From Geitlerinema sp. PCC 7407 (GTDB lineage: Bacteria > Cyanobacteriota > Cyanobacteriia > PCC-7407), in NCBI RefSeq assembly GCF_000317045.1, contig NC_019703.1, forward strand, positions 670,501-734,500: a stretch of DNA of 64,000 nucleotides. The letters run 5' to 3'. Position numbers and translations under genes: made by a program. Positions within the stretch are counted from its first letter, which is position 1. Each line of letters starts with the position of its first letter. The notes beneath the pieces were generated by a model. It was not told the DNA's origin and searched no databases. It worked only from the letters and a program-made list of their open reading frames with translations. This document shows positions 46,642 through 61,471 of the stretch, piece by piece.

Positions 46642-49600
46642 CTAGTTGACCCGCGCCCGGAACCGAATCACCCGGACATTTTGCCCCGTCGTCTGAGACA
46701 CCTCACCCAGATTGACCACCAGTGCCCCCGTGGGATTGTTCTGGTCGGGGCAGGCGTTGCCCGCAGGCGGCGGCGTCAGCGGCGGCACATAGGTCACCTC
46801 ATCGGTATCGGCCTGGTTTGTCTTGCCGAGCAGCGATCCGGGCGCACCCACCACCGTCCCTTGGCCGCCGCCAAAGGCATCCGGCAAGAAGGTCATCTCC
46901 GCCGGAATCGGATCGCAGGCATTCACGCCCTGGACGGGCGCTGTCCCGTCCGACAGCAGATAGATCGTGTACTCGACAATGTCGCCACTTTGCAGGGGCG
47001 TGCTTTCGGTGATGCGAGGCACTCCAATCGGGCCAGAAGATCCCCAGCCCGGCACCGTGTCATTGGGGTCCGCCGGGTCATCCACCACTTGGCTAAAGTC
47101 CACACCGCCCAAGGGAGCCCCGTTGCGCGTCACCGCCGTCACGCGCTTCACCACCCGCAGATTGCCTGTACCCGGCGTCGTCCCCACAGGATTGACGATT
47201 ACGCCTGCCTGGTCATCTTCATCAGCACTGCTGTTGCCCGGTGTGGAGTCGGGGTCCGTTTGATCGGTGCTGCTGACCTGAGCGGTATTGGTAATGGCAT
47301 CAGGCCCCACGGTCCCGCTCACCGTCAGCGTCGTTTGCGCTCCCACGCCCAAGCTCGGCAAGCTCCAAAGACCGGTGTTGTTGTCATAGGTGCCCGTGGC
47401 AGGCGTCACCGTCACATTGGTCAGGCCCGCCGGAATCGGATCGCTGACTTCAATGTTGGTCGCAGTGTCGGGTCCCGCATTCGCCAGGGTCACCGTGAAA
47501 GTGATCACCTCTCCCACGTTGGGCGCAGTGTTGTCTACTGTCTTGGTAATGGACAGATCCGCCACTCGCGCCGGAATTGTCACGCTCGCGCGATCGTCTT
47601 CGGTGGTACTGCCATTGCCGGGGGTTGAGTCCGGATCGGGCTGGTCAGAGCCAGTCACCTCGGCCACGTTGGTGCTGGTGCCTGCCGCGTTGAAGGTGCC
47701 GTTCAGGGTCAAGGTCACCGAGGCCCCATTGGCCAGGCTGGGAATGCTCCAAAGACCGGTCGCGTTGTCGTAGGTGCCCGCGCTGACCGTCACCGTGGCA
47801 TTGGTCAATCCGCTGGGGACGGGGTCGCTCACCCGCACATTGGTGGCGGTGGAGGGGCCACTGTTGGTCAGCACTACCGTGAAGGTGACCGGGTCTCCCG
47901 GACTGGGATTGGCGTTGTCGACGGCTTTGGTCAGGCTGAGGTCCGCGATGGGCGGCGTGATGGTGGCGATCGCGCGATCGTCTTCGTTGGGGTCGTTGTT
48001 ACCAGGGGTCGAGTCCGGATCGGGCTGGTCAGAGCCAGTCACCTCAGCCACGTTGGTGGTGGGTGCCGTTGCCGTCACGGTCCCTTCGAGGGTGAGGGTC
48101 GCCGTCGCGCCACTGTCGATCGCCGGCACGCTCCACACCCCCGTCGCCGCGTCGTAGGTTCCCACGCTTGGCGTCACCACCGGATTGGCCAAGCCCGTCG
48201 GCACCGGATCGCTGAGGCGCACATTGGTTGCTGTGGATGGCCCTGCGTTGCTGAGGGTGACGGTGAAGGTGACCCGCTCTCCCACATTGGGGGTCGTGTT
48301 GTTGACCACCTTCGCCACGCTCAGATCCGCCGAAGCCTGGGGCACGATGGTCACCGTTGACTGATCGTCCTCGGTCGGCACATTGTTGTTGGGCCGAGAA
48401 TCAAGATCCGGCACATCCGAAGTCGTGATCTGGGCCGTATTGGCATAGTCCCCGGTCGGGTTCACGCGCGCTGTGATTTGCAACTGCTGACTCTGGCCAT
48501 TCCCTAGGAAATTGACGGTCCAGTTGCCGGTCGCCGGGTCGTAGGTACCGCCGCTATTATCCGAAACGTAGGTCAGCCCCGAGGGCAGCTGATCGTTAAC
48601 CGTGATGCCCCCCGCTGTGTCAGGCCCCCGGTTTGTCAGGGTGAGGGTGTAGGTGATGTTTTGACCCACCGCTGGCGTGGTTGTGTCTACGGTTTTGACC
48701 AGCTCTAGGTCAGCTGCTCGCGTTCTTGCGCCGATCACGGCCGCCGCCAAAATGACCAGGTCCGTTCCGGTGGCAATTGTGCCTGTGACCTCCGTTGCTC
48801 CTGCTGCGGTGAAGTTCGACACATCAAACGTGTCGAGGTCAACGCCGTAGGTGACATTCGGACCTAGGCCTAGTGAGTTGATGCTTGAGCTGAAGGGATT
48901 TTGAAGCGGATTTTGAGCGTCAGATAGGGTATTTCCCTCAAATTGGTAAACTTCTGTAACCTGTCCTGGGGGTGGGTTTTGGTCACCTTCCCACACGAGG
49001 CCTGTAAATTTTGTAACTGGTGTATCGGGGGCGCTGAGCCCTGACAGGACAAAGTCTGCCCTTTCGTTTTGCAGGACCGTGAAGCCATCGTAGACATTCA
49101 CGATATTGGTGAAGGGAACGGCAACCGGATCTTCGTAGACAACGATGAGACTCCAGGCAGACAACACAGCTCGCCCAAAACACCAAGGATCTCCTGTTGC
49201 TACAGTCAGATCTGCAAAGGTGTAGTTGCCATTGCGACTGGTGGCCACAATGGATGTGACATCAGCGAACCCGCCAAACCATTGAAAGTTGCGGACGGGA
49301 GGTCCGGGCAAAACAAAGGTGTCTGTTTGGGTTTGCTGGGATGCAATCGTCTGCCCTTGGAAAGTGATGGATGTGTCTGGTGTATTCCCAGAACCGGACC
49401 AGTAGAGGTAGGCAGCCCGAATGGTTGCTCCCGCTGGAATCCCATTGAGCGGCGAAGTGCTGGTGTTTGTGACTGTACAGGAAGGTGCTTGCGTGTTGCC
49501 CCCAGGAACGTCAGCCTGGGTGCGTAGGGTGCCGCCGGTGACGACGTAGTCAAAGGGACCAATGAAATCTTGGCGCAGGGGCAGGGCGGCTGTTTGGGCG

Positions 49601-49752
49601 GCGGCGCGGGGAGCGAGGAGGAGAGAACTGGCGGTGAGGGCGATCGCGCTGGTTGCTGGGAGCCAGCGGGGGGCGATCGCGCTGAGGGCAGCAGACAACC
49701 AAACTGGTTGGCGCAGAAACAGGGCTTTGCGGGAAGACTTCATGAACTGCAT
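46642..49752 (-). CDS. Large secreted DUF11-repeat surface protein
   Basis: 1036 residues, starting MQFMKSSRKALFLRQPVW, with a signal peptide to about residue 53 (LLLAPRAAAQ). Residues of about 55-345 are a beta-rich domain (DYVVTGGTLRTQADVPGG, IRAAYLYWSGSGNTPDTS, AWSLIVVYED) resembling DUF3344. Then four DUF11 Ig-like repeats begin near 346, 474, 602 and 730, each about 128 residues, with ADLSLTKAVDN-type starts and VTFTVVLTNSGPSTATNV. Residues from 870 on form another such domain with NLRVVKRVTAV. Two DNA segments 384 bases apart are almost identical. It is the last gene of a four-gene leftward operon. I infer a surface adhesin or stalk. Confidence 0.8.
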   Translation of the reverse strand: MQFMKSSRKALFLRQPVWLSAALSAIAPRWLPATSAIALTASSLLLAPRAAAQTAALPLRQDFIGPFDYVVTGGTLRTQADVPGGNTQAPSCTVTNTSTSPLNGIPAGATIRAAYLYWSGSGNTPDTSITFQGQTIASQQTQTDTFVLPGPPVRNFQWFGGFADVTSIVATSRNGNYTFADLTVATGDPWCFGRAVLSAWSLIVVYEDPVAVPFTNIVNVYDGFTVLQNERADFVLSGLSAPDTPVTKFTGLVWEGDQNPPPGQVTEVYQFEGNTLSDAQNPLQNPFSSSINSLGLGPNVTYGVDLDTFDVSNFTAAGATEVTGTIATGTDLVILAAAVIGARTRAADLELVKTVDTTTPAVGQNITYTLTLTNRGPDTAGGITVNDQLPSGLTYVSDNSGGTYDPATGNWTVNFLGNGQSQQLQITARVNPTGDYANTAQITTSDVPDLDSRPNNNVPTEDDQSTVTIVPQASADLSVAKVVNNTTPNVGERVTFTVTLSNAGPSTATNVRLSDPVPTGLANPVVTPSVGTYDAATGVWSVPAIDSGATATLTLEGTVTATAPTTNVAEVTGSDQPDPDSTPGNNDPNEDDRAIATITPPIADLSLTKAVDNANPSPGDPVTFTVVLTNSGPSTATNVRVSDPVPSGLTNATVTVSAGTYDNATGLWSIPSLANGASVTLTLNGTFNAAGTSTNVAEVTGSDQPDPDSTPGNGSTTEDDRASVTIPARVADLSITKTVDNTAPNVGEVITFTVTLANAGPDTATNIEVSDPIPAGLTNVTVTPATGTYDNNTGLWSLPSLGVGAQTTLTVSGTVGPDAITNTAQVSSTDQTDPDSTPGNSSADEDDQAGVIVNPVGTTPGTGNLRVVKRVTAVTRNGAPLGGVDFSQVVDDPADPNDTVPGWGSSGPIGVPRITESTPLQSGDIVEYTIYLLSDGTAPVQGVNACDPIPAEMTFLPDAFGGGQGTVVGAPGSLLGKTNQADTDEVTYVPPLTPPPAGNACPDQNNPTGALVVNLGEVSQTTGQNVRVIRFRARVN
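47627..48058 (-). repeat. 384-base periodic duplication within the DUF11 protein gene
   Basis: A 35-base segment at 47627-47661 is identical to 48011-48045. One mismatch follows and then another 12 identical bases. The interval, 384 bases, equals exactly one 128-residue DUF11 repeat. The copies code for the VAEVTGSDQPDPDS junction. It suggests recent tandem duplication or gene conversion of repeats. Confidence 0.7.
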
Positions 49753-49784
49753 GGGTGATGTGTCAGCGTTGCCAAAGGGGCCAA

Positions 49785-51389
49785 TCAGTTGGATGGGAGG
49801 GGCCGGAGGCGGATGGTGAGGGCTGGCTCTGAGGTGCCGTAGTTCGGATGGTGGGCGATCGCGCTGAGCTGCAAGGACGGGAGCAGCGATGACTCGGGAT
49901 CGTCCGGTGCCTCGATTTCCAGGGAGAAGCGGCCGTTTTCGTCAGCGGTGACCGTGGGACCCAGCAGACTCAAGGGGGCGTACTGCCCAACGGTGGCCTC
50001 GCTGGCCTCGACGTAGTAGAAGGTGACCTCTGCCCCGGGCAGCGCTGTGCCCAAAATTTCGGCTCGGCGATCGCGCATCCAGAAAAACTCTGGGCTGACG
50101 AACTGGGGCGCATCCAGGCCAAAGTTGGCAGTCTTGTTGCGCCGCTGGAAGCTGTTGGTCAGGGGGTTGGGGCCGTCGCCCTGGGTGTAGGCTGTCGGAT
50201 CGGTTTGCTGCTGGGTGACCAGGTCAATGCTCAGGCCCTGGAGATTTTGGAAGGTGTTGCCGGTCAGCCGGTTGCGATCGCTGCGGGGGTAAGCCGCAAC
50301 GACGATGCCGGGGCCATTTTGATCGGCGATCGCGTTTTCGGTGACCTCGTGGCCGCTGCCCATCAGGTAGATCGCTGCGCGCGATCGCTGCGCCCCATTC
50401 CCCGCTAGGGAGTTGCCCTGGATGCGCACCGTTCCGTCGGGTTTGTAGAGAAAAATGCCGCTGCCCGCATTGTCAATCAGGCGGTTGCTCTCGAGGAGCA
50501 GGCCCTGGACTTGGCCCTCTAGGCGCACAGCGTCCGGCATCCCTGCAAAGCCATTGCGGGTGATCAGGTTGCCGCGAATCACGCTATCGGTGGCCTGACG
50601 GCTCGTCAGGATGGCGCTGCCCTGGTGGCCGCTCAGGTAGTTGCTGCGGATCGTCAGGCCCTGGGCGTCGAGGACATAGATGCCGAAGGAAGAAGGGAGG
50701 GAATCAGCCGGTCGGGGCTGGGGCTCGGTTGCCGACGAGTCTCGGGGGGATAGGCCCAGCCAGTTGCGCTCAATGGTGACGTTTTCTGGCGGCGCGATCG
50801 CCCCTTCTGGCACGCCGAGGGAGGCGGGCGACCCGACGAGAATATTGCCGCTGGGCAGGCTGCCCGTCTCGGTGGCCTGGCCCCGGAACCCGTAGAGGCT
50901 GAGGCCGCGCACCGTGACGTCATTGGCGGCGATCGCCAGTCCGTAGGGAATCACCGCGTCCGGAGCCGGGGCGATCGCCACCACCGGGGACAGATCCACT
51001 AAGGCTTCCTCGGGCGCCTCCTCGGGATAGTCCGGCTGGCTGGTGCCGTCGAGGGTCAAGCCGGCCGTCGTCAAGATCGGCAGGGGTTCGAGCAGCTCAA
51101 TGGTGGTCGCCTCGGCGGGCAGATTAAACAGCACCACTGCCTCGGGGACCTCTTGGCCGTCGACCTGGGCTGCCTCAGCGGGGCTGAGCTGATCGAGGGT
51201 CAGGCTGCCCTGGGCCAGGGCGATCGCCTCTCGCAGCGTCAGCTGATCATCCGGCTGAATTGGGCCGTCTTGGGCGCTGTTGACCACGATTTGCAGCGCT
51301 GCCGCTGGTGCCGCGAAGCCCAGTCCCCAGGCGATCGCCAGCAGTCCTAGAACCCCCCGAATTGGCTGGGGGCGATCGCGTCTTGGCAT
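49785..51389 (-). CDS. Secreted right-handed beta-helix protein with CSLREA-like start
   Basis: About 534 residues from ATG 51389 (MPRRDRPQPIRGVLGLLAI), supported by AGGAGAG upstream. A signal peptide (LLAIAWGLGFAAPAAA) is followed by LQIVVNSAQDG and DQLTLREAIALAQG, the CSLREA-type domain seen at the N-terminus of large surface proteins. Then come beta-helix (NosD/pectate-lyase-like) turns such as VTIERNWLGLS, LTIRSNYLSGHQG and VRIQGNSLAGNG. The C-terminus contains a beta-sandwich with DENGRFSLEIEAPDD. It is third in the four-gene operon, 22 bases after the barrel gene and 32 before the DUF11 gene. No catalytic residues are obvious; surface polysaccharide binding is a guess. Confidence 0.75.
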   Translation of the reverse strand: MPRRDRPQPIRGVLGLLAIAWGLGFAAPAAALQIVVNSAQDGPIQPDDQLTLREAIALAQGSLTLDQLSPAEAAQVDGQEVPEAVVLFNLPAEATTIELLEPLPILTTAGLTLDGTSQPDYPEEAPEEALVDLSPVVAIAPAPDAVIPYGLAIAANDVTVRGLSLYGFRGQATETGSLPSGNILVGSPASLGVPEGAIAPPENVTIERNWLGLSPRDSSATEPQPRPADSLPSSFGIYVLDAQGLTIRSNYLSGHQGSAILTSRQATDSVIRGNLITRNGFAGMPDAVRLEGQVQGLLLESNRLIDNAGSGIFLYKPDGTVRIQGNSLAGNGAQRSRAAIYLMGSGHEVTENAIADQNGPGIVVAAYPRSDRNRLTGNTFQNLQGLSIDLVTQQQTDPTAYTQGDGPNPLTNSFQRRNKTANFGLDAPQFVSPEFFWMRDRRAEILGTALPGAEVTFYYVEASEATVGQYAPLSLLGPTVTADENGRFSLEIEAPDDPESSLLPSLQLSAIAHHPNYGTSEPALTIRLRPLPSN

Positions 51390-51411
51390 CTTTCTCTCCT
51401 GCTCCCGACCA

Positions 51412-54400
51412 CTACAGCGCTTCATGATTCACCTCCTCGGCCTCGGAGCGGACCGGCACAGCCTCCACCAGCGGCGGCGACAGCACATCCGCACTCAGCA
51501 CAATCGGCTCTTCCTCTTCGGCTGTCGGCTGCTCCGCCGTCGTCGCCTCCTCGCTGGGGGGCCGCTCAGGCCGCAGGCGCTGCCGCCCAAAGCCATCAAA
51601 CAGCTCATTCACCTTAAAGGACACATTCAGGTACACACCGCCATCCGAGCGATAGCCCGTGAAATCGCGATCGTCCACGCTGCCGAAGCTGTAGCCCAAG
51701 GCCACCCGCAAATCCGGCGTCACGTAGTACCCCGCCTCCAGCGCCCAGCCCAGCTCATCAAAATTTGCCCCGGGCTGACTAATCCAGCGCACCTCCCCCG
51801 CCACATCCGTGCGATAGCCAATGCGGTGGGTTGCCCGCAGCTGCGCCAGGGAAATCGTGCTGTCATTGCTAAAGTTGCGGGCCTGGTAGGTCTTGCTGTT
51901 GCGCAGGGCGTACTTGCCGTAGAACTCCCAGCGGAAGGTCGGCGCGTAGATCGCCTCCAGCCCAAACAGGTGGTCCCGAGAGCCCGTCCCGTTCTCAAAC
52001 AGCAGCGTATCGGGAATCGTCGAGGGATTTTCTCGGTATTCGTAGCGCAGCAGCGCATTGAAGCGATCGTCCCTCGGGTTGCGGTAGGCCAGGCCCAGCT
52101 TGAGCGTTTTGCTGTTGCCCAGCAGATCGAGCAGCTGATTGGTCGCATCCGCTTGCTGATAGCGCAGCAGCGCCGTCAGCGCGGGCGTCAGCTTGCCCGC
52201 GGCGGCCCCCGAGATCACCGTATTGTCGCCATCGGAGGAGTCCCGGTGCTCCAGGCGAGCGCTGGCCTGGAACTTGGGATTGTCGGTGTACTCGATCCCG
52301 ACGCTGTAGGTATCCCCGCCCGCTAGGGCCAAGGCCGCAGCGCTCTGGCCGGTGGCGTAGGGCTGCAAGAAGCGATCGCCCGCCGCTGTCGGCTCCAGCA
52401 GATCCCGGAAAACGTGCTCATAGCCCAAATTCACCCGCAGGCCCGGCGCGATCGTCCAGCGATGGTTTAGGCCCACCGCCCCCTGACCCGCCATTTGGTT
52501 GTAGGCGTTGATCAGGGAGTAGCGGCCCGTGATGCTGGTGTTCTCCGTCAGGTCATGCTCCAGAATCGTGTCCAGGCTAGTGATCGCGTTCTCCCGGAAC
52601 AGCCCCCCCTCAAAGAACTGGTGAGCCAGCCGGACCGTCACCCCCGGATAGGCATCCCAGTCGAGGCCCAGGGTCGTGCGATCGGGATAGAGCGGATCGT
52701 CGTCGCCCCCCAGATTCAGCTCGTTCTGGGCGCGGAAGGTCAGGGTGTCCACAATGGGCACCGCCAGCCGAGAAACCAGCTGGCTGGTATCGCGATCGAA
52801 CAGGGTTTCCCCGGTGCGGTCTTCCCGCGATCGGTTCACGTACTCCAGGCTCAGATCCGCCGTCCCGACCTTTTGCTGCACCCCGGCCCGGAGGGTCGTC
52901 AGGGTATTGTCCAGACGGCTGCCCGGAATCGGCTCCGGCTCCGGATTGAACAGGTCCACAAACTCCGTCCGCACCAAGGGAGCAATGCCGAAATTGGTTT
53001 CCCGATCGAACTCCGCAAACAGGCGCGTCGTCTCAGCCACATCCGCCGTCAGCGCGCCGCCGTAGCGAGTCTGCCCCGGCGTAAAGCTGGAGGTGGCGTT
53101 GTTGACAAAGTTCTCCTCCACCGACCGGTAGAAAGCGCGGCCCCACACAATCGGCGAAATATTGCCGTCTACTTCCAGGCGATAGGCCGAGCCGTCGACC
53201 GTTCCCAAAAAGATGGAGTCATTGGTGGAGTGGGCGTATTCCCCGACAAAGCGGCCATTGTCGCCCAGGGGCACCAAAAAGTCTGCGCCGTACAGCTCAA
53301 AATCTGCGTCCCCCTGGTCTTCGCGGAGGTAGGTGGCGGCCACCCAGCTTTCGCGCTCGAAGGTGCGGGAGAAGTTGTACTGGAGACGACCCGCGTAGAG
53401 GTTCGTGGTGTCGCGATCGGAGTCGTACTGGTAGGTGACCACCAGCCGCCGCACCAGCGTTGTGCCAAAGGGGTTCAGCTCGGTCGCCAGGACAGGCCGC
53501 CGAAACCTCAGGGTGCCGCGATCGTAGTCGATTTCATAGTCCGGGCCTCGCAGGAGCTGCTTGCGCTCCAGGACCGTTCCCGGCCGGTTGATTTCCTCGG
53601 CCTCCAGGAAAACGACCTCGCTGCCCGGAATCACCAGCCGCCGCGCCAAGAAATAGTCGCCGCTGGTGCCGTTGGGGACGAGGGTGTCCCGCTGGAAGCC
53701 CTCGACGTCGTTGCTGAAGAAGGCCGAAAGCTGGAAGTTGCCGAGGCTGTAGTTGCCCTTGAAGCCGTGGAGCTGGCGCGTGGTGGCGGTGAACTGCTGG
53801 GACGCGCGGGCAAACTCGAAGGTGTCGTAGTCGCCCCACATGCCGTAGTCGGCTTCGGCCCCGGCCTCCGGCGAGGAGCGCTCGAAGCGCAAAAAGAGGC
53901 TGTCGCGGGACGGCGTGGTTTTCTGGACGGTGGAGCTGTCGCCGTAGACGGGGTAGTCCTGCTCGCAGAACTGGACGTCCTGGTAGAGGCGATTGCCGTC
54001 GCAGGTCTCGTTGAGGGCGCGCGAGCTGTTGTAGGCGCCGGTAAAGAGCCATTCACCGACGCGGCCGGTGGCAAAGGCAGCCGCGTCTAGGTCGACTTCG
54101 GTGCCGTCGTCGATGATGTCCGGGTCGAGGAACTCGCGGAGGCTGCCCCAGTAGTTGGTCCCGGCCTCCCCAATGCGCAGATTGACCACCCCCGTGGCGA
54201 TCGAGGGCCGCAGGTTCGTGACAAACTCGACCTGGGTGAAGGTTTCGAGGGGATTTTCCTGGGGGCCGAGGTCGATGGGCAGGGGCTCCAGCGTGGTGCG
54301 ATCGCCCTTCCCAAAGACCTCGTCTCGGTCTACCGCAGCCCGCACCTGGACCTTTTGGGCGTTGGTGGTGGACTGTAGGCGCGCGGTGAACTGGCCGTCC

Positions 54401-55230
54401 CGGGCGATCGCCTGGAAGCCCGGCCGATCTTCGTCGGCATCTGCGCCCAGGAACTGGCCCGCCGTGCTGGTCAGCGTCACCGTTGACGTTTGGGTCAGGG
54501 GGTTGCCCTGGGCATCGAGGAGCGAACCCCGCAGGGTGAGCGCGGAGCGGCCATCGGCCATGATCCGGCCTTCGTCCTCGGCTTCCAGGCTGATCTGGAT
54601 TTCTGGCTCTTCTAGGGTGAGGGTGACTGTGCTGGTCTGGCCGCCGTCGACGCGGGCGCTGAGCACGTTTTCCCCAGCCTGTAGCGGGACGCTGTACCAG
54701 ATCTGAGTCACCAAGCTGCGATCGCTGTCGGTGCTCGTCTGGGTGGGCAGATCGGGGTCGAGGGGCCGACCATTGAGGGTCACCAAGACGCGATCGCCCG
54801 CGTGAAACTCCACCACCACGCTGGTTTTGGCTGTGGTCACGCTGCCTGAGTCGGGCGTGAGGATGCGCACCTCGCCCGGGGCGATCGCCGGTCCGACCTG
54901 AGTCGCCGGGGCTGCCGTTTCTCCTAGGCCCTCTGGCGCAATTTCTGGCGCAATTTCTGGCGCGAGCTCTGCCTCTGCCTCGCTTGAGGTGGGGGCAGCC
55001 TCCAGCTCTTCCGACGGGAGCACCGGGGGTTCGTCTGCCAAGGGCCGCAGCCGAGAATCTGGGGCCGAAATCTCTTCAGCGCCCTCAGTCAGGGCCTCTG
55101 GGGTCTCTGGGGCTGGGGCCGAGGACTGGGCCGACGCAGCAGGCGCCATTACCGCCGCGATCGCCGCGCTCAGCACCCCTAGCCACAGCCCTTCGGAGGG
55201 CCAACGAAACGAGCCTGTTCCGCGTTTCAT
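51412..55230 (-). CDS. Very large outer-membrane beta-barrel protein with Ig-like N-terminus
   Basis: About 1272 residues from ATG 55230 (MKRGTGSFRWPSEGLW), with GGAGG upstream. Signal peptide to about residue 35 (MAPAASAQ), then an acidic Pro/Glu-rich region with APEIAPEIAPE repeats. Two Ig-like domains follow (VVVEFHAGDRVLVTLNGRPLD; MADGRSALTLRGSLLDAQG). From about residue 300 to 1209 the sequence alternates as in barrel strands, e.g. RGPDYEIDYDRGTLRFRRP and WEFYGKYALRNSKTY. A last strand ends in NVSFKVNELF, an outer-membrane beta signal-like Phe. A 63-residue acidic tail follows. No TonB box or OmpA motif is seen. Second gene of the operon. Confidence 0.75.
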   Translation of the reverse strand: MKRGTGSFRWPSEGLWLGVLSAAIAAVMAPAASAQSSAPAPETPEALTEGAEEISAPDSRLRPLADEPPVLPSEELEAAPTSSEAEAELAPEIAPEIAPEGLGETAAPATQVGPAIAPGEVRILTPDSGSVTTAKTSVVVEFHAGDRVLVTLNGRPLDPDLPTQTSTDSDRSLVTQIWYSVPLQAGENVLSARVDGGQTSTVTLTLEEPEIQISLEAEDEGRIMADGRSALTLRGSLLDAQGNPLTQTSTVTLTSTAGQFLGADADEDRPGFQAIARDGQFTARLQSTTNAQKVQVRAAVDRDEVFGKGDRTTLEPLPIDLGPQENPLETFTQVEFVTNLRPSIATGVVNLRIGEAGTNYWGSLREFLDPDIIDDGTEVDLDAAAFATGRVGEWLFTGAYNSSRALNETCDGNRLYQDVQFCEQDYPVYGDSSTVQKTTPSRDSLFLRFERSSPEAGAEADYGMWGDYDTFEFARASQQFTATTRQLHGFKGNYSLGNFQLSAFFSNDVEGFQRDTLVPNGTSGDYFLARRLVIPGSEVVFLEAEEINRPGTVLERKQLLRGPDYEIDYDRGTLRFRRPVLATELNPFGTTLVRRLVVTYQYDSDRDTTNLYAGRLQYNFSRTFERESWVAATYLREDQGDADFELYGADFLVPLGDNGRFVGEYAHSTNDSIFLGTVDGSAYRLEVDGNISPIVWGRAFYRSVEENFVNNATSSFTPGQTRYGGALTADVAETTRLFAEFDRETNFGIAPLVRTEFVDLFNPEPEPIPGSRLDNTLTTLRAGVQQKVGTADLSLEYVNRSREDRTGETLFDRDTSQLVSRLAVPIVDTLTFRAQNELNLGGDDDPLYPDRTTLGLDWDAYPGVTVRLAHQFFEGGLFRENAITSLDTILEHDLTENTSITGRYSLINAYNQMAGQGAVGLNHRWTIAPGLRVNLGYEHVFRDLLEPTAAGDRFLQPYATGQSAAALALAGGDTYSVGIEYTDNPKFQASARLEHRDSSDGDNTVISGAAAGKLTPALTALLRYQQADATNQLLDLLGNSKTLKLGLAYRNPRDDRFNALLRYEYRENPSTIPDTLLFENGTGSRDHLFGLEAIYAPTFRWEFYGKYALRNSKTYQARNFSNDSTISLAQLRATHRIGYRTDVAGEVRWISQPGANFDELGWALEAGYYVTPDLRVALGYSFGSVDDRDFTGYRSDGGVYLNVSFKVNELFDGFGRQRLRPERPPSEEATTAEQPTAEEEEPIVLSADVLSPPLVEAVPVRSEAEEVNHEAL
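54933..54962 (-). repeat. 12-base tandem repeat in barrel gene
   Basis: CTGGCGCAATTT occurs at 54933-54944 and 54945-54956, followed by a partial third copy. It codes for the APEI repeats of the protein's acidic linker and may vary in copy number between strains. Confidence 0.6.
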
Positions 55231-55232
55231 CC

Positions 55233-56195
55233 TCACTCCTCCCCTGCCGCAGGCGTCACCGCAAAATTCATTCGCACCAGTCCCCCGGGCTCTAGGCGCA
55301 CCAGGCGAGACTGGCTATTGCCCTCAATGCGAACCCGGTTGGGGGCCAGGGTGTAGTCGGGAATGCTCGTCAGATCCAGCACGCCGCTGCGATACCCAGA
55401 AATGACGTTCGCCACCGAGAACAGGCCCTCTTCATCGGTCGTGATGCGGTTGCCATCATCGAGAAACACCACCGCATTGGGAACACCGGGCTCTCCCGGC
55501 TGCTGCTCTCCGTCAAAATTCTTGTCCACAAACACCCGGCCAAGCAGGGTGCCGCAATCCGACAGAATGCCGGGGCGAATGCGCAGCAGGTGGCTGGCCT
55601 GATTGCTCTGGATCGGCTGACCGCCCGACAGGCCCGCAGAAACTGCCAGGTTGCGCCCCGAACCCCGCACCGAGTCCGGCGTCAGCAGCGCCGCGTAAAC
55701 AATATTGAGAACTTGTCCGGGTGCGAGGCTAACAGTGCTGTTAAAGGTAATCGTCCCGTCGGTGACTGGCCCCGGCGTGAGGGTCACCGGCACTGTCCCC
55801 GTCTCTGAGGTGAACGAGCCTTGCAGGGAACTCGGCACAAACTGCAATCCCAGCGGCAGCTTGTCAGTCACAGACACGTTGTTGACCGTTGCCGTGCCGC
55901 TGTTGCGTACCAGCAGGCGATAGACCACGGTGTCTCCAGGCTCTGCCGCTGCGCGATCGCCCGTCTTGATCAGCTCCAGTACCGGCTGCCCCTGGTTCGC
56001 AACCACCGTCGTCGGATTCGACGGCACAGGCTGAGGCGGAGCCGTAGGCGTTGGGCGATAGATCGCGTTCGCCGTATTCGTAATCGTGACTGCCTGCTGT
56101 GCATTCGCGGGCAGTGTCAGCGTTGGTAAATAGCCGTGCAAGAGAAGGGCCTGGATCGCTAATCCAGCCCATCGCGGCCACGTCGCGTTCCGCAT
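55233..56195 (-). CDS. Secreted DUF11/SdrD-like protein, first gene of surface operon
   Basis: 320 residues with a signal peptide (LPTLTLPANAQQA cleavage area). Residues of about 70-190 form one DUF11 domain (LELIKTGDRAAAEPGDTVVY, NNVSVTDKLPLGLQFVPSS). Residues of about 215-290 form a SdrD-B/carboxypeptidase-regulatory-like domain with GRVFVDKNFDGEQQPGEPGV and GNRITTDEEGLFSV. This pattern is common on cell-surface proteins that can be calcium-dependent. Its stop codon lies 2 bases before the barrel gene's ATG, and a GTG overlap also exists, so the two are coupled. It probably presents a small surface module linked to the barrel protein. Confidence 0.75.
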   Translation of the reverse strand: MRNATWPRWAGLAIQALLLHGYLPTLTLPANAQQAVTITNTANAIYRPTPTAPPQPVPSNPTTVVANQGQPVLELIKTGDRAAAEPGDTVVYRLLVRNSGTATVNNVSVTDKLPLGLQFVPSSLQGSFTSETGTVPVTLTPGPVTDGTITFNSTVSLAPGQVLNIVYAALLTPDSVRGSGRNLAVSAGLSGGQPIQSNQASHLLRIRPGILSDCGTLLGRVFVDKNFDGEQQPGEPGVPNAVVFLDDGNRITTDEEGLFSVANVISGYRSGVLDLTSIPDYTLAPNRVRIEGNSQSRLVRLEPGGLVRMNFAVTPAAGEE

Positions 56196-57317: not shown

Positions 57318-58112
57318 TTAGGCGATCGCGGCTTTCAGCTCCCGGCAAAACTCCGCCACCGAGGCCACGCCTTCTTCGGGCGTGCCCTCAGCTAGGCGCT
57401 TCACAAAGGCGCTGCCCACAATCACCGCGTCTGCGCCCCAGTCCTTGACCTGGCGCGCCTGCTCCGGCTGAGAAATCCCAAAGCCCACACCAACTGGCTT
57501 CGCGCTGACCTCCCGCAGGTCCACCAGCAGATCCTTGACGCGGCTCTGGATTTCGGAGCGTATCCCCGTCACGCCGGTCACGCTGACGAGGTAGACGAAG
57601 CCCTGGGCCTGCTGGGCGATCGCCCGAATGCGATCTTGAGAGCTCGTAGGAGCAACCAGCAGAATCACATCAATGCCCTTTTCGGCGGCTGGCTTGAGCA
57701 GACTGTCGGCTTCCTCCAGCGGCAAGTCGGGCACCACCAGGCCCTTGGCACCGGCTGCCACCGCCTGATCGAGGAATGTCTCAATGCCCCGATTCAAAAT
57801 CGGGTTGTAGTAGGTAAACAGCACCACAGGTGCCTTGAGCTCCGGCGTCACCTCCCGCAGCATCTCCAGCACCATCTCGAGGCGCACGCCCTTGCTGAGG
57901 GCTCGCGTTGCCGCTGCCTGAATGACGGGTCCGTCGGCTAGGGGATCAGAATAAGGGACTCCCAACTCGATCAAGTCTGCGCCGTTTTGATCGAGAGCCC
58001 GCAGCGCTTTTGCCGTGGTTTCCAAATCTGGATCGCCTGCCGTAATGAAGGGAATCAGCGCACACTGCTGGCGATCGCGCAAAGACTGGAAGCAATCCGA
58101 GATAGCTGTCAT
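57318..58112 (-). CDS. trpA: Tryptophan synthase alpha subunit
   Basis: TIM-barrel enzyme splitting indole-3-glycerol phosphate to indole. About 264 residues from ATG 58112 ([17 protein letters not shown]). Active-site Glu and Asp lie in [19 protein letters not shown]. Other blocks are [53 protein letters not shown] and [10 protein letters not shown], with [12 protein letters not shown] near the end. A GTG at 58124 is in frame. It lies leftward after ndhL and DUF3007, about 276 bases away; trp genes are dispersed in cyanobacteria. Confidence 0.95.
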
Positions 58113-58388
58113 GATTGAACTCACTACAAAGCGGCAGAGACAAACATAGGACGCCTTTTCCCGGAGGCACTGCGGTCACCGCCGCCACACCCCGGCAAAG
58201 TTTCTCATCCGACGATCTAGCTTACAGAACTTTAAGCAAAGCCCATCGCTTTTGCGTGGGGGATGGGGGGTAGCCTCGCCGCACAGCCGGTCAGCGCACC
58301 CTCAAAAAGAAACTGGGCGATCGCCTCTAGCCCAGAAGCGCGCCCAGTCTCGTCGCTATTGTGAACCCTGGAGGAGTGGGTGACGCGC

Positions 58389-59992: not shown

Positions 59993-61471
59993 ATGGATAC
60001 TAAGGGCGCGCCTCCCCCCAAGCCGCTCGGCCCGCGCAAGCTGTTCTTGAGCGCACCGGACCCCTTACACTCAACAGTCCTGCCAAAAACCATGATCAGG
60101 GATGTCATACCGAGGAGATCACAGCTTGATTTGTTGAGTAAGAGTAACCAGCCCAAGCGGTCAATTCAAGAATCGCAGGAGGTTATTTTTCGCTACCTCC
60201 TGACTATCGTCAAAGAGTGGCAACCTAGCGAAGTTCTAGGGGAATTCAAGCGCCTATTTATCTATCACGTTGATTCCGCTAGCTCTGAGGCTTTGCAGGC
60301 TCTCTACGAAGTCGTTTTTGCGAATAACGATCAAGAGTTTCGCAACACCCTCAAGCGATCGTGCTACATCCTGATCAACAACTGGGATGCCACCCGGCAG
60401 CACCAGCCGATTCGGGAGCTAGTGGGTCTCTTTGAAGATGCGGCGGTCACGCGACAAACGGCTTCCCCCACCCTCAAGCGGCTGCGGCAGTGGATCCACG
60501 ACTTTGCCAAAAGCAAAGACTACGACGATCTCAAGCTCTTCGTTGCCAAGTACGACGGGCCAGACCAGTCTCACTGGAGTCAGCGCTACACCTCCTACCT
60601 GCTTGTCCCCCAGTACACCGATCTCCAGAACCCGCGAGAGCAGCGGGAGGCGGCCCGGGCTCTGGCCAAGCAGCTGCGCGACAAATTTAAGTTTGATTTG
60701 GCGATGTACATCGCGCGATCGCAGTCTGGCTCGCAGCCCCAGGGCAAAAACCCCCAGAACCCAACGACCCTGGGGGATGGTGTCTTGCGCCTGATCAAAA
60801 CGGTCGTGGCGCGGCGCGGCCCCTTTAGCTACGTCAATTTAGCCAACATTTTTATTAATCAAACGCGAGATCTCAAGTATCGAGATTTCAAAAAAAGTCT
60901 TCTAGAATATCTGCTGTTTTCGATTAATAATCCGGAGCTAGTCGAGCTCCTGCGCAAGCGCTTACCCGAAAAGCTAGAGGGGCTCTACGATCGCTATGAT
61001 GATGAGCCGATTCAGAGCGCGCTGCTGCTGCGGACCTGCAATCGGCTGATTGATTTTTTGACGATCGAAAATGGCCAAGAGCCTTCGTCTTTGTTTGCCC
61101 AGTTGCTGTCCCAGGGCAATCCTTTAACGATTGTGATTGTGCTGCTCAAAATCATTTTGATTTGTCGCAATGCGCGCACCTATCTAGAGACGCGGATTGG
61201 GGAACTGGTGCGCTACTACGGCAACTATCCAGAAGAAGAGTGTCAGTGGATTGTGCACTTTATGGAGGTATTTAATATCACCTTCACAATCTACGCAGAG
61301 AACGTCCGCTACAACCTAGTGCGCATGCCGGAGGATGTGCCGCTTCCAGACAACAATCAGTACAAAATTTTCTCGCAGCTTCGGTACGAGGAAGGCGCAG
61401 AAGCCGAGGTGGAGGAGCTGCCTGAGGTGGCGATCGAGCCAGACCTGAACCCCGAAGAAGGGGCAGACTAG
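59993..61471 (+). CDS. Large conserved cyanobacterial-type protein, unknown function
   Basis: 492 residues from ATG 59993, or 459 from ATG 60092 (MIRDVIPRRSQLDLLSKSN), which I consider the more conserved start. Mostly alpha-helical, with EVIFRYLLTIVKEWQPSEVL, LKRSCYILINNWDATRQHQ, FSYVNLANIFINQTRDLKYR and LLRTCNRLIDFLTIENGQ, and an acidic Glu-rich end. A helix with hydrophobic ILICRNARTYLETRIG follows. No signal peptide, clear membrane segment or enzyme motif is seen. It may be a helical-repeat scaffold. It converges on the LPG-synthase-like gene with a four-base overlap. Function unknown. Confidence 0.62.
   Translation: MDTKGAPPPKPLGPRKLFLSAPDPLHSTVLPKTMIRDVIPRRSQLDLLSKSNQPKRSIQESQEVIFRYLLTIVKEWQPSEVLGEFKRLFIYHVDSASSEALQALYEVVFANNDQEFRNTLKRSCYILINNWDATRQHQPIRELVGLFEDAAVTRQTASPTLKRLRQWIHDFAKSKDYDDLKLFVAKYDGPDQSHWSQRYTSYLLVPQYTDLQNPREQREAARALAKQLRDKFKFDLAMYIARSQSGSQPQGKNPQNPTTLGDGVLRLIKTVVARRGPFSYVNLANIFINQTRDLKYRDFKKSLLEYLLFSINNPELVELLRKRLPEKLEGLYDRYDDEPIQSALLLRTCNRLIDFLTIENGQEPSSLFAQLLSQGNPLTIVIVLLKIILICRNARTYLETRIGELVRYYGNYPEEECQWIVHFMEVFNITFTIYAENVRYNLVRMPEDVPLPDNNQYKIFSQLRYEEGAEAEVEELPEVAIEPDLNPEEGAD

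Follow-up and report, generated by a model that had tools for sequence, protein, structure and literature searches.

A conserved cyanobacterial operon that probably encodes a DUF11 surface fibre and its own giant outer-membrane barrel

We analysed a 64,000-nucleotide stretch of Geitlerinema sp. PCC 7407 DNA (contig NC_019703.1, positions 670,501 to 734,500; here called the window) and conclude that four of its genes, G1 to G4, probably form an operon for a fibrillar surface adhesin with its own giant outer-membrane barrel as the base. In the proposed arrangement, G2 would be the barrel base, with an Ig domain at its N-terminal and probably periplasmic end, and G1, with one DUF11 and one SdrD_B/transthyretin-like domain, would be an adaptor docking on G2. 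G4 would be the exposed fibre, made of a head, an isopeptide-stapled DUF11 stalk, and a C-terminal domain that would connect the fibre to the base, most likely via G1. G3 would be an optional secreted beta-helix that either shares the base or decorates the fibre. This reading is based on the pairing of G1 with G2 at every full-length locus, their fusion in Acinetobacter, the tendency of the G4 C-terminal domain to occur where the barrel does, and the role of DUF11 domains in stalks. Within it, we infer that the fibre passes through the barrel and is exposed at the surface, that the parts dock, and that the structure is adhesive, as well as secretion and attachment of the stalk by the barrel.

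The region from 56195 to 46642 is filled by four intact minus-strand open reading frames (ORFs), transcribed in the order G1 to G4 with gaps or overlaps of at most 32 bp, which bears out an earlier note that described four tightly spaced leftward genes here. G1 (55233..56195, minus strand) encodes 320 aa. G2 (51412..55236, minus) encodes 1,274 aa from a GTG codon or 1,272 aa from an ATG at 55230, the latter leaving a 2-bp gap after the G1 stop. G3 (49785..51425, minus; 546 aa) overlaps G2 by 14 bp, or follows it by about 22 bp if its second ATG is used, and G4 (46642..49752, minus; 1,036 aa) begins after a further 32 bp. Judged by eye, each protein has a Sec signal peptide-like N terminus, as the earlier note had also claimed. 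A promoter and terminator scan of the operon gave matches no better than chance, so the proposal of one transcript for G1 to G4 rests on the spacing and the conserved gene order. Upstream on the same strand lies trpA, for tryptophan synthase alpha (57318-58124, minus), which is also upstream in several relatives (loci L031-L033, L035, L040, and L043). The flanking genes in the window that were scanned with Pfam were trpA, cbiJ, and a methyltransferase gene, with no TonB or uptake gene among them. A 492-aa ORF at 59993-61471 on the plus strand had no Pfam match at E 1e-4, and PADLOC matched nothing. The complete 4.68-Mb genome has a single copy of the G2 barrel, and its DUF11 matches are confined to G1 and G4.

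The DUF11 domain, since renamed CLIPPER, is an Ig domain stapled by an isopeptide bond and is found in the stalks of fibrillar adhesins (PMC12617251). In G1, the signal peptide is followed by an orphan TITNTANAIY motif (containing N40), a DUF11 domain (Pfam 5e-15, aa 73-175) with the predicted isopeptide triad K77/D111/N182, and a domain from aa 220 to about 310 that matched SdrD_B below its cut-off (8e-5). The description of G1 as DUF11/SdrD-like is thus clear in its first part and sub-threshold in its second. G3 consists of a signal peptide, a weak CSLREA-like stretch, a right-handed beta-helix (Beta_helix, 1e-14), and a C-terminal region with no Pfam match; the beta-helix assignment made earlier stands, and the CSLREA match is weak. 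G4 is clearly the DUF11-repeat protein that it had been taken for (Pfam 8e-129). Its four repeats (47179..48714, minus; aa 347-858) all carry a Lys-Asp-Asn isopeptide triad by sequence (K353/D387/N438, K481/D515/N567, K609/D643/N695, and K737/D771/N822). They are preceded by a signal peptide and an N-terminal head, whose approximately 290 residues match no Pfam family at cut-off and which varies from one relative to another. As judged from its sequence, G4 has the tandem, triad-bearing DUF11 domains behind a signal peptide (by eye) that mark DUF11/CLIPPER fibrillar adhesins, and no known sorting domain was found on it in Pfam or NCBIfam. In a PDB sequence search, G1 and G4 each matched the DUF11 structure 9IFR weakly, and nothing useful came up for G2 and G3.

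We modelled G2 residues 213-1226 with AlphaFold2 using an alignment of only 32 related sequences (pLDDT 76.4, pTM 0.69). The model begins with an Ig domain (54322..54600, minus; aa 213-305), which follows the signal peptide and a linker, and continues with 8 to 9 strands, a small hairpin domain, and then 32 long strands; the barrel region (51607..54249, minus; aa 330-1210) is followed by a short C-terminal tail. The top PDB matches in Foldseek were outer-membrane barrels: Deinococcus SlpA (E 1.8e-9), SprA, the Mtr complex barrel, LptD, TonB receptors, and PapC. TM-scores to known barrels were low (at most 0.24 on the query), as expected since barrel sizes differ. Scored with a simple hydropathy measure of our own, 26 of the 43 strands of at least 7 residues were clearly amphipathic, from model residue 118 on. 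We read the model as roughly 36 to 40 transmembrane strands and predict that G2 is an outer-membrane barrel. The same claim in the earlier note, for a protein of about 1,272 aa, agrees with both AlphaFold2 and Foldseek, and the structure check did not contradict it.

Family searches did not place this barrel in a known class. No Pfam cut-off was reached, with near-cut-off, sub-threshold Invasin_D3/Big_1 matches (aa 218-303) and a weak Porin_4 match as the only hits, and NCBIfam gave no match. Neither database found a TonB-receptor or plug domain in G2, nor a POTRA/TpsB or autotransporter barrel domain of the type V secretion system (T5SS). T5SS barrels have far fewer strands than are predicted for G2. 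SprA, the translocon of Type IX secretion (T9SS) and the second-ranked protein in Foldseek (E 1.5e-8), is likewise a giant outer-membrane barrel, and its cargo carries Ig-like C-terminal domains; however, G2 has no Pfam or NCBIfam match to the SprA family and a low TM-score to it, and no T9SS gene, plug or partner, was seen beside G2. Aureispira secretes through a T9SS. The best Foldseek match, SlpA of the Deinococcus S-layer deinoxanthin-binding complex, differs from G2 in having a TM-score of only about 0.24 and 11% identity, and the operon partners of G2 are DUF11 proteins.

Among 96 genomes sampled from the class, 33 had the G2 barrel, as did 34 of 291 genomes of a phylum-wide sample, where matches outside the class were weak. 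A species-level genome collection yielded 440 occurrences, the best 80 of which were all cyanobacterial. At each of the 38 loci examined that have a full-length barrel, the gene directly upstream of G2 was G1, and the two often overlapped by 4 bp; G3 followed G2 in 20 of the 38. This recurrence of gene order across the class is far above chance. Two forms of the locus were seen. The short form resembles the window and lies beside trpA in several genomes, and the long form has a longer G1 with two extra genes upstream, for a protein of about 830 aa and a DUF11-like protein of about 190 aa; many loci carry this extra pair. The approximately 830-aa protein contained DUF7925 in both examples scanned. 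The bodies of G4 proteins were very unlike one another across relatives. The gene-order check proposed in the earlier note thus did not contradict its reading; the invariant unit supported by these data is G1 plus G2, along with proteins carrying the C-terminal domain of G4, and G3, found in about half of the loci, is optional. Two diverged loci come from other classes of the phylum. One (L170, 310-5793, genome G120) has a barrel followed by three secreted-looking proteins of about 200 aa, all ending in a strand such as AIRFRVRIN. In the other (L168, genome G133), the barrel is apparently split over two ORFs and is flanked by proteins ending in GEVRFRVQIN and GEVSFSVMIQ.

The last approximately 185 residues are the best-conserved part of G4. 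This C-terminal domain (46645..47205, minus; aa 850-1036; K869, D947) ends with the strand RVIRFRARVN, and profile matches to it stopped 0 to 2 residues before the C terminus in 29 loci. It is DUF11-like by sequence (hhalign E 3e-7). Foldseek with its model listed 9IFR among the matches, none of them at E 0.001; the best was the uncharacterised Thermus thermophilus protein TTHA1873 (E 1.6e-3), which we did not find named in the open-access papers searched. The domain was found in 33 of 33 genomes with the barrel versus 4 of 63 without it (Fisher's test on genomes, P ~1e-21, a value that ignores common descent and linkage), and the co-occurrence partly reflects operon linkage and shared ancestry. 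In several genomes, two or more genes carry the domain. The four barrel-less genomes with a domain-like end belong to one genus (G028, G078, G042, and G090; loci L161-L164); their matches were weaker or partial, and the G2 profile detected no barrel in them. Upstream of the DUF11 protein gene, L163 and L164 have two similar but smaller genes.

The optional nature of G3, the great differences among G4 bodies, and one genome in which a G4-like gene sits upstream of the operon and points the other way (L167) would all fit a looser set, in which an independent barrel and separately acting secreted proteins merely share an operon. We consider this unlikely, as the G4 C-terminal domain stays conserved and tracks the barrel, and G1 and G2 are fused in Acinetobacter. 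The notion of a barrel with partner adhesins, as put forward in the earlier note, is partly supported, by the predicted barrel fold and the conserved gene set, and has to give up G3 as a constant member.

A search of plasmid records beyond the phylum found distant G2 relatives (22-29% identity) on proteobacterial plasmids. A single 2,008-aa protein of Acinetobacter haemolyticus holds G1-like and then G2-like regions, in the same order as in the operon. In Roseovarius and Phyllobacterium, the gene for a giant DUF11 protein (about 4,300 and 3,550 aa, respectively) overlaps the barrel gene, and the C-terminal end of the giant matches G1; a comparable giant with a G1-matching C-terminal end lies beside a related barrel in Eleftheria. 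In Vibrio campbellii, a giant protein of at least 2,900 aa, a barrel, and an OmpA-family protein are encoded in a row. From these arrangements, the association of a fibre, a G1 module, and a barrel looks old.

Several of these proteobacterial relatives are annotated as "TonB-dependent receptor," and in Phyllobacterium the barrel gene is followed by exbB, exbD, a TonB-family gene, and a gene for a siderophore-interacting protein. Together with the TonB receptors among the Foldseek matches, this might indicate a role in nutrient transport for the barrel, which would then resemble a TonB-dependent receptor or a porin and have the DUF11 and beta-helix proteins as substrate-binding accessories. We regard such a function as very improbable: Pfam found no TonB-receptor or plug family in G2 or in four scanned relatives from Proteobacteria, the Pfam-scanned genes flanking the operon in the window are trpA, cbiJ, and a methyltransferase gene rather than TonB or uptake genes, and a DUF11 protein is the constant partner of the barrel across phyla. 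The receptor labels are probably wrong, despite the exbB, exbD, and TonB-family genes near the Phyllobacterium barrel.

In some G2 proteins, the barrel is followed by a long tail that contains an OmpA-like domain (loci L063 and L046, E 6e-7 and 4e-7, above cut-off), and weaker matches of this kind were seen at L160 (Synechococcus NIES-970) and L065. Where such domains occur on a barrel protein or next to one, they suggest a link to peptidoglycan. All of the proteins could conceivably stay in the periplasm and connect the outer membrane to peptidoglycan, as a structural envelope tie instead of an exposed fibre, which would agree with the OmpA-like domains on G2 tails and neighbouring proteins, with conservation without an obvious dedicated adhesive domain, and with the probable periplasmic orientation of G1 and the G2 Ig domain. 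This explanation has a low probability in our view. Giant relatives of several thousand residues outsize the width of the periplasm, the G2 of the window has only a short tail with no OmpA match, and exposed adhesins and hook filaments are known to have DUF11 stalks (PMC12617251 and PMC13319060). A fibre displayed on the barrel base is the reading that we prefer.

How the fibre might be joined to its base is suggested by three features: the G4 C-terminal domain has an invariant Lys and an invariant Asp without an Asn of the same kind, the AlphaFold2 model of the domain has a beta-strand at the very end of the chain, and a motif resembling the Asn-bearing last strand of DUF11 occurs soon after the signal peptide in other proteins of the system. 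These features suggest donor-strand joining of G4 to G1, perhaps covalent, by analogy with archaeal threads (PMC9715654). More broadly, and as a tentative and rather doubtful proposal, the fibre may be built from parts split within the DUF11 fold, so that a donated strand, possibly sealed by a Lys-Asn bond without a sortase, links tip, stalk, G1, and the approximately 40-strand barrel in a Gram-negative, SpyTag/SpyCatcher-like manner. The acceptors would be G4 and, in the long form, the approximately 830-aa and 190-aa proteins, each with a DUF11 fold at its end that lacks the last strand, and the acceptor end of G4 would retain the reactive Lys and the catalytic Asp. The donors would be G1 and the approximately 830-aa protein, which would carry the missing Asn-bearing strand at the N terminus; insertion of this strand would join the subunits, perhaps with a covalent Lys-Asn bond between them.

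The N-terminal motif was present in 34 of 37 G1 proteins and 22 of 23 of the approximately 830-aa proteins, with about 2 expected in each class from shuffling. Elsewhere, it was seen in 0 of 37 G2, 0 of 19 G3, 1 of 23 approximately 190-aa, and 6 of 30 G4 proteins (2.4 expected) and in 30 of 159 other ORFs. The pattern was composed after some of the N termini concerned had been viewed, and the contrast between classes therefore outweighs the raw counts as evidence. Alignment of the motif to the last DUF11 strand was weak (E 0.023, probability 2%). A profile search for the missing last strand in the final 24 or 50 residues was not significant for the G4 domain and was only suggestive for the approximately 830-aa and 190-aa proteins. 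The motif was absent from the N termini of the only three fully fused proteobacterial giants that were read, as the split-strand idea predicts.

Chaperone-usher pili and archaeal threads offer only a functional analogy, in that the following subunit supplies the strand that completes an Ig domain. The intermolecular isopeptide bond proposed for the threads runs from Asn57 to an N-terminal amine, not to a Lys (PMC9715654). The operon has no chaperone or usher family, and donor-strand joining is a hypothesis here. The DUF11/CLIPPER adhesin of Acinetobacter silvestris (B9T28_05395, PDB 9IFR) resembles the operon in its signal peptide, head, and triad-bearing DUF11 repeats, and it has an OmpA-like anchor domain, a type of domain that we found on or beside several relatives (PMC12617251). 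The operon, by contrast, divides stalk, adaptor, and base among separate genes and has a giant barrel as the base; the text consulted on that adhesin describes no barrel partner. The grappling-hook filament proteins GhpA (Aureispira) and GhlA (Litorilinea) are likewise long bead-on-string DUF11 surface proteins (PMC13319060, citing Lien et al. 2024). They differ in their size of about 5,900 to 6,600 residues, in forming multimeric hook filaments, and in their secretion, GhlA having no signal peptide (PMC13319060). A paper on type XI secretion cargo was discarded as a DUF11 lead since nearly all of its "DUF11" matches are to different DUF numbers that start with 11, such as DUF1194. We recognised no cyanobacterial DUF11-barrel operon in the open-access papers searched, and the view that this gene set has no named system agrees with Pfam, NCBIfam, and the same papers.

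A giant-barrel partner of DUF11 fibrillar adhesins is thus apparently undescribed. The G2 barrels appear to be a family of outer-membrane partners of DUF11 fibres that is widespread in cyanobacteria, reaches no Pfam or NCBIfam cut-off, and is distantly related to proteins labelled "TonB-dependent receptor," and G2 may rank among the largest single-chain barrels. Should the split-strand joining prove true, its partners would be a natural self-joining protein pair. If the G2 family does serve DUF11 fibres, it would explain how bacteria with two membranes can display DUF11 stalks without a sortase anchor.
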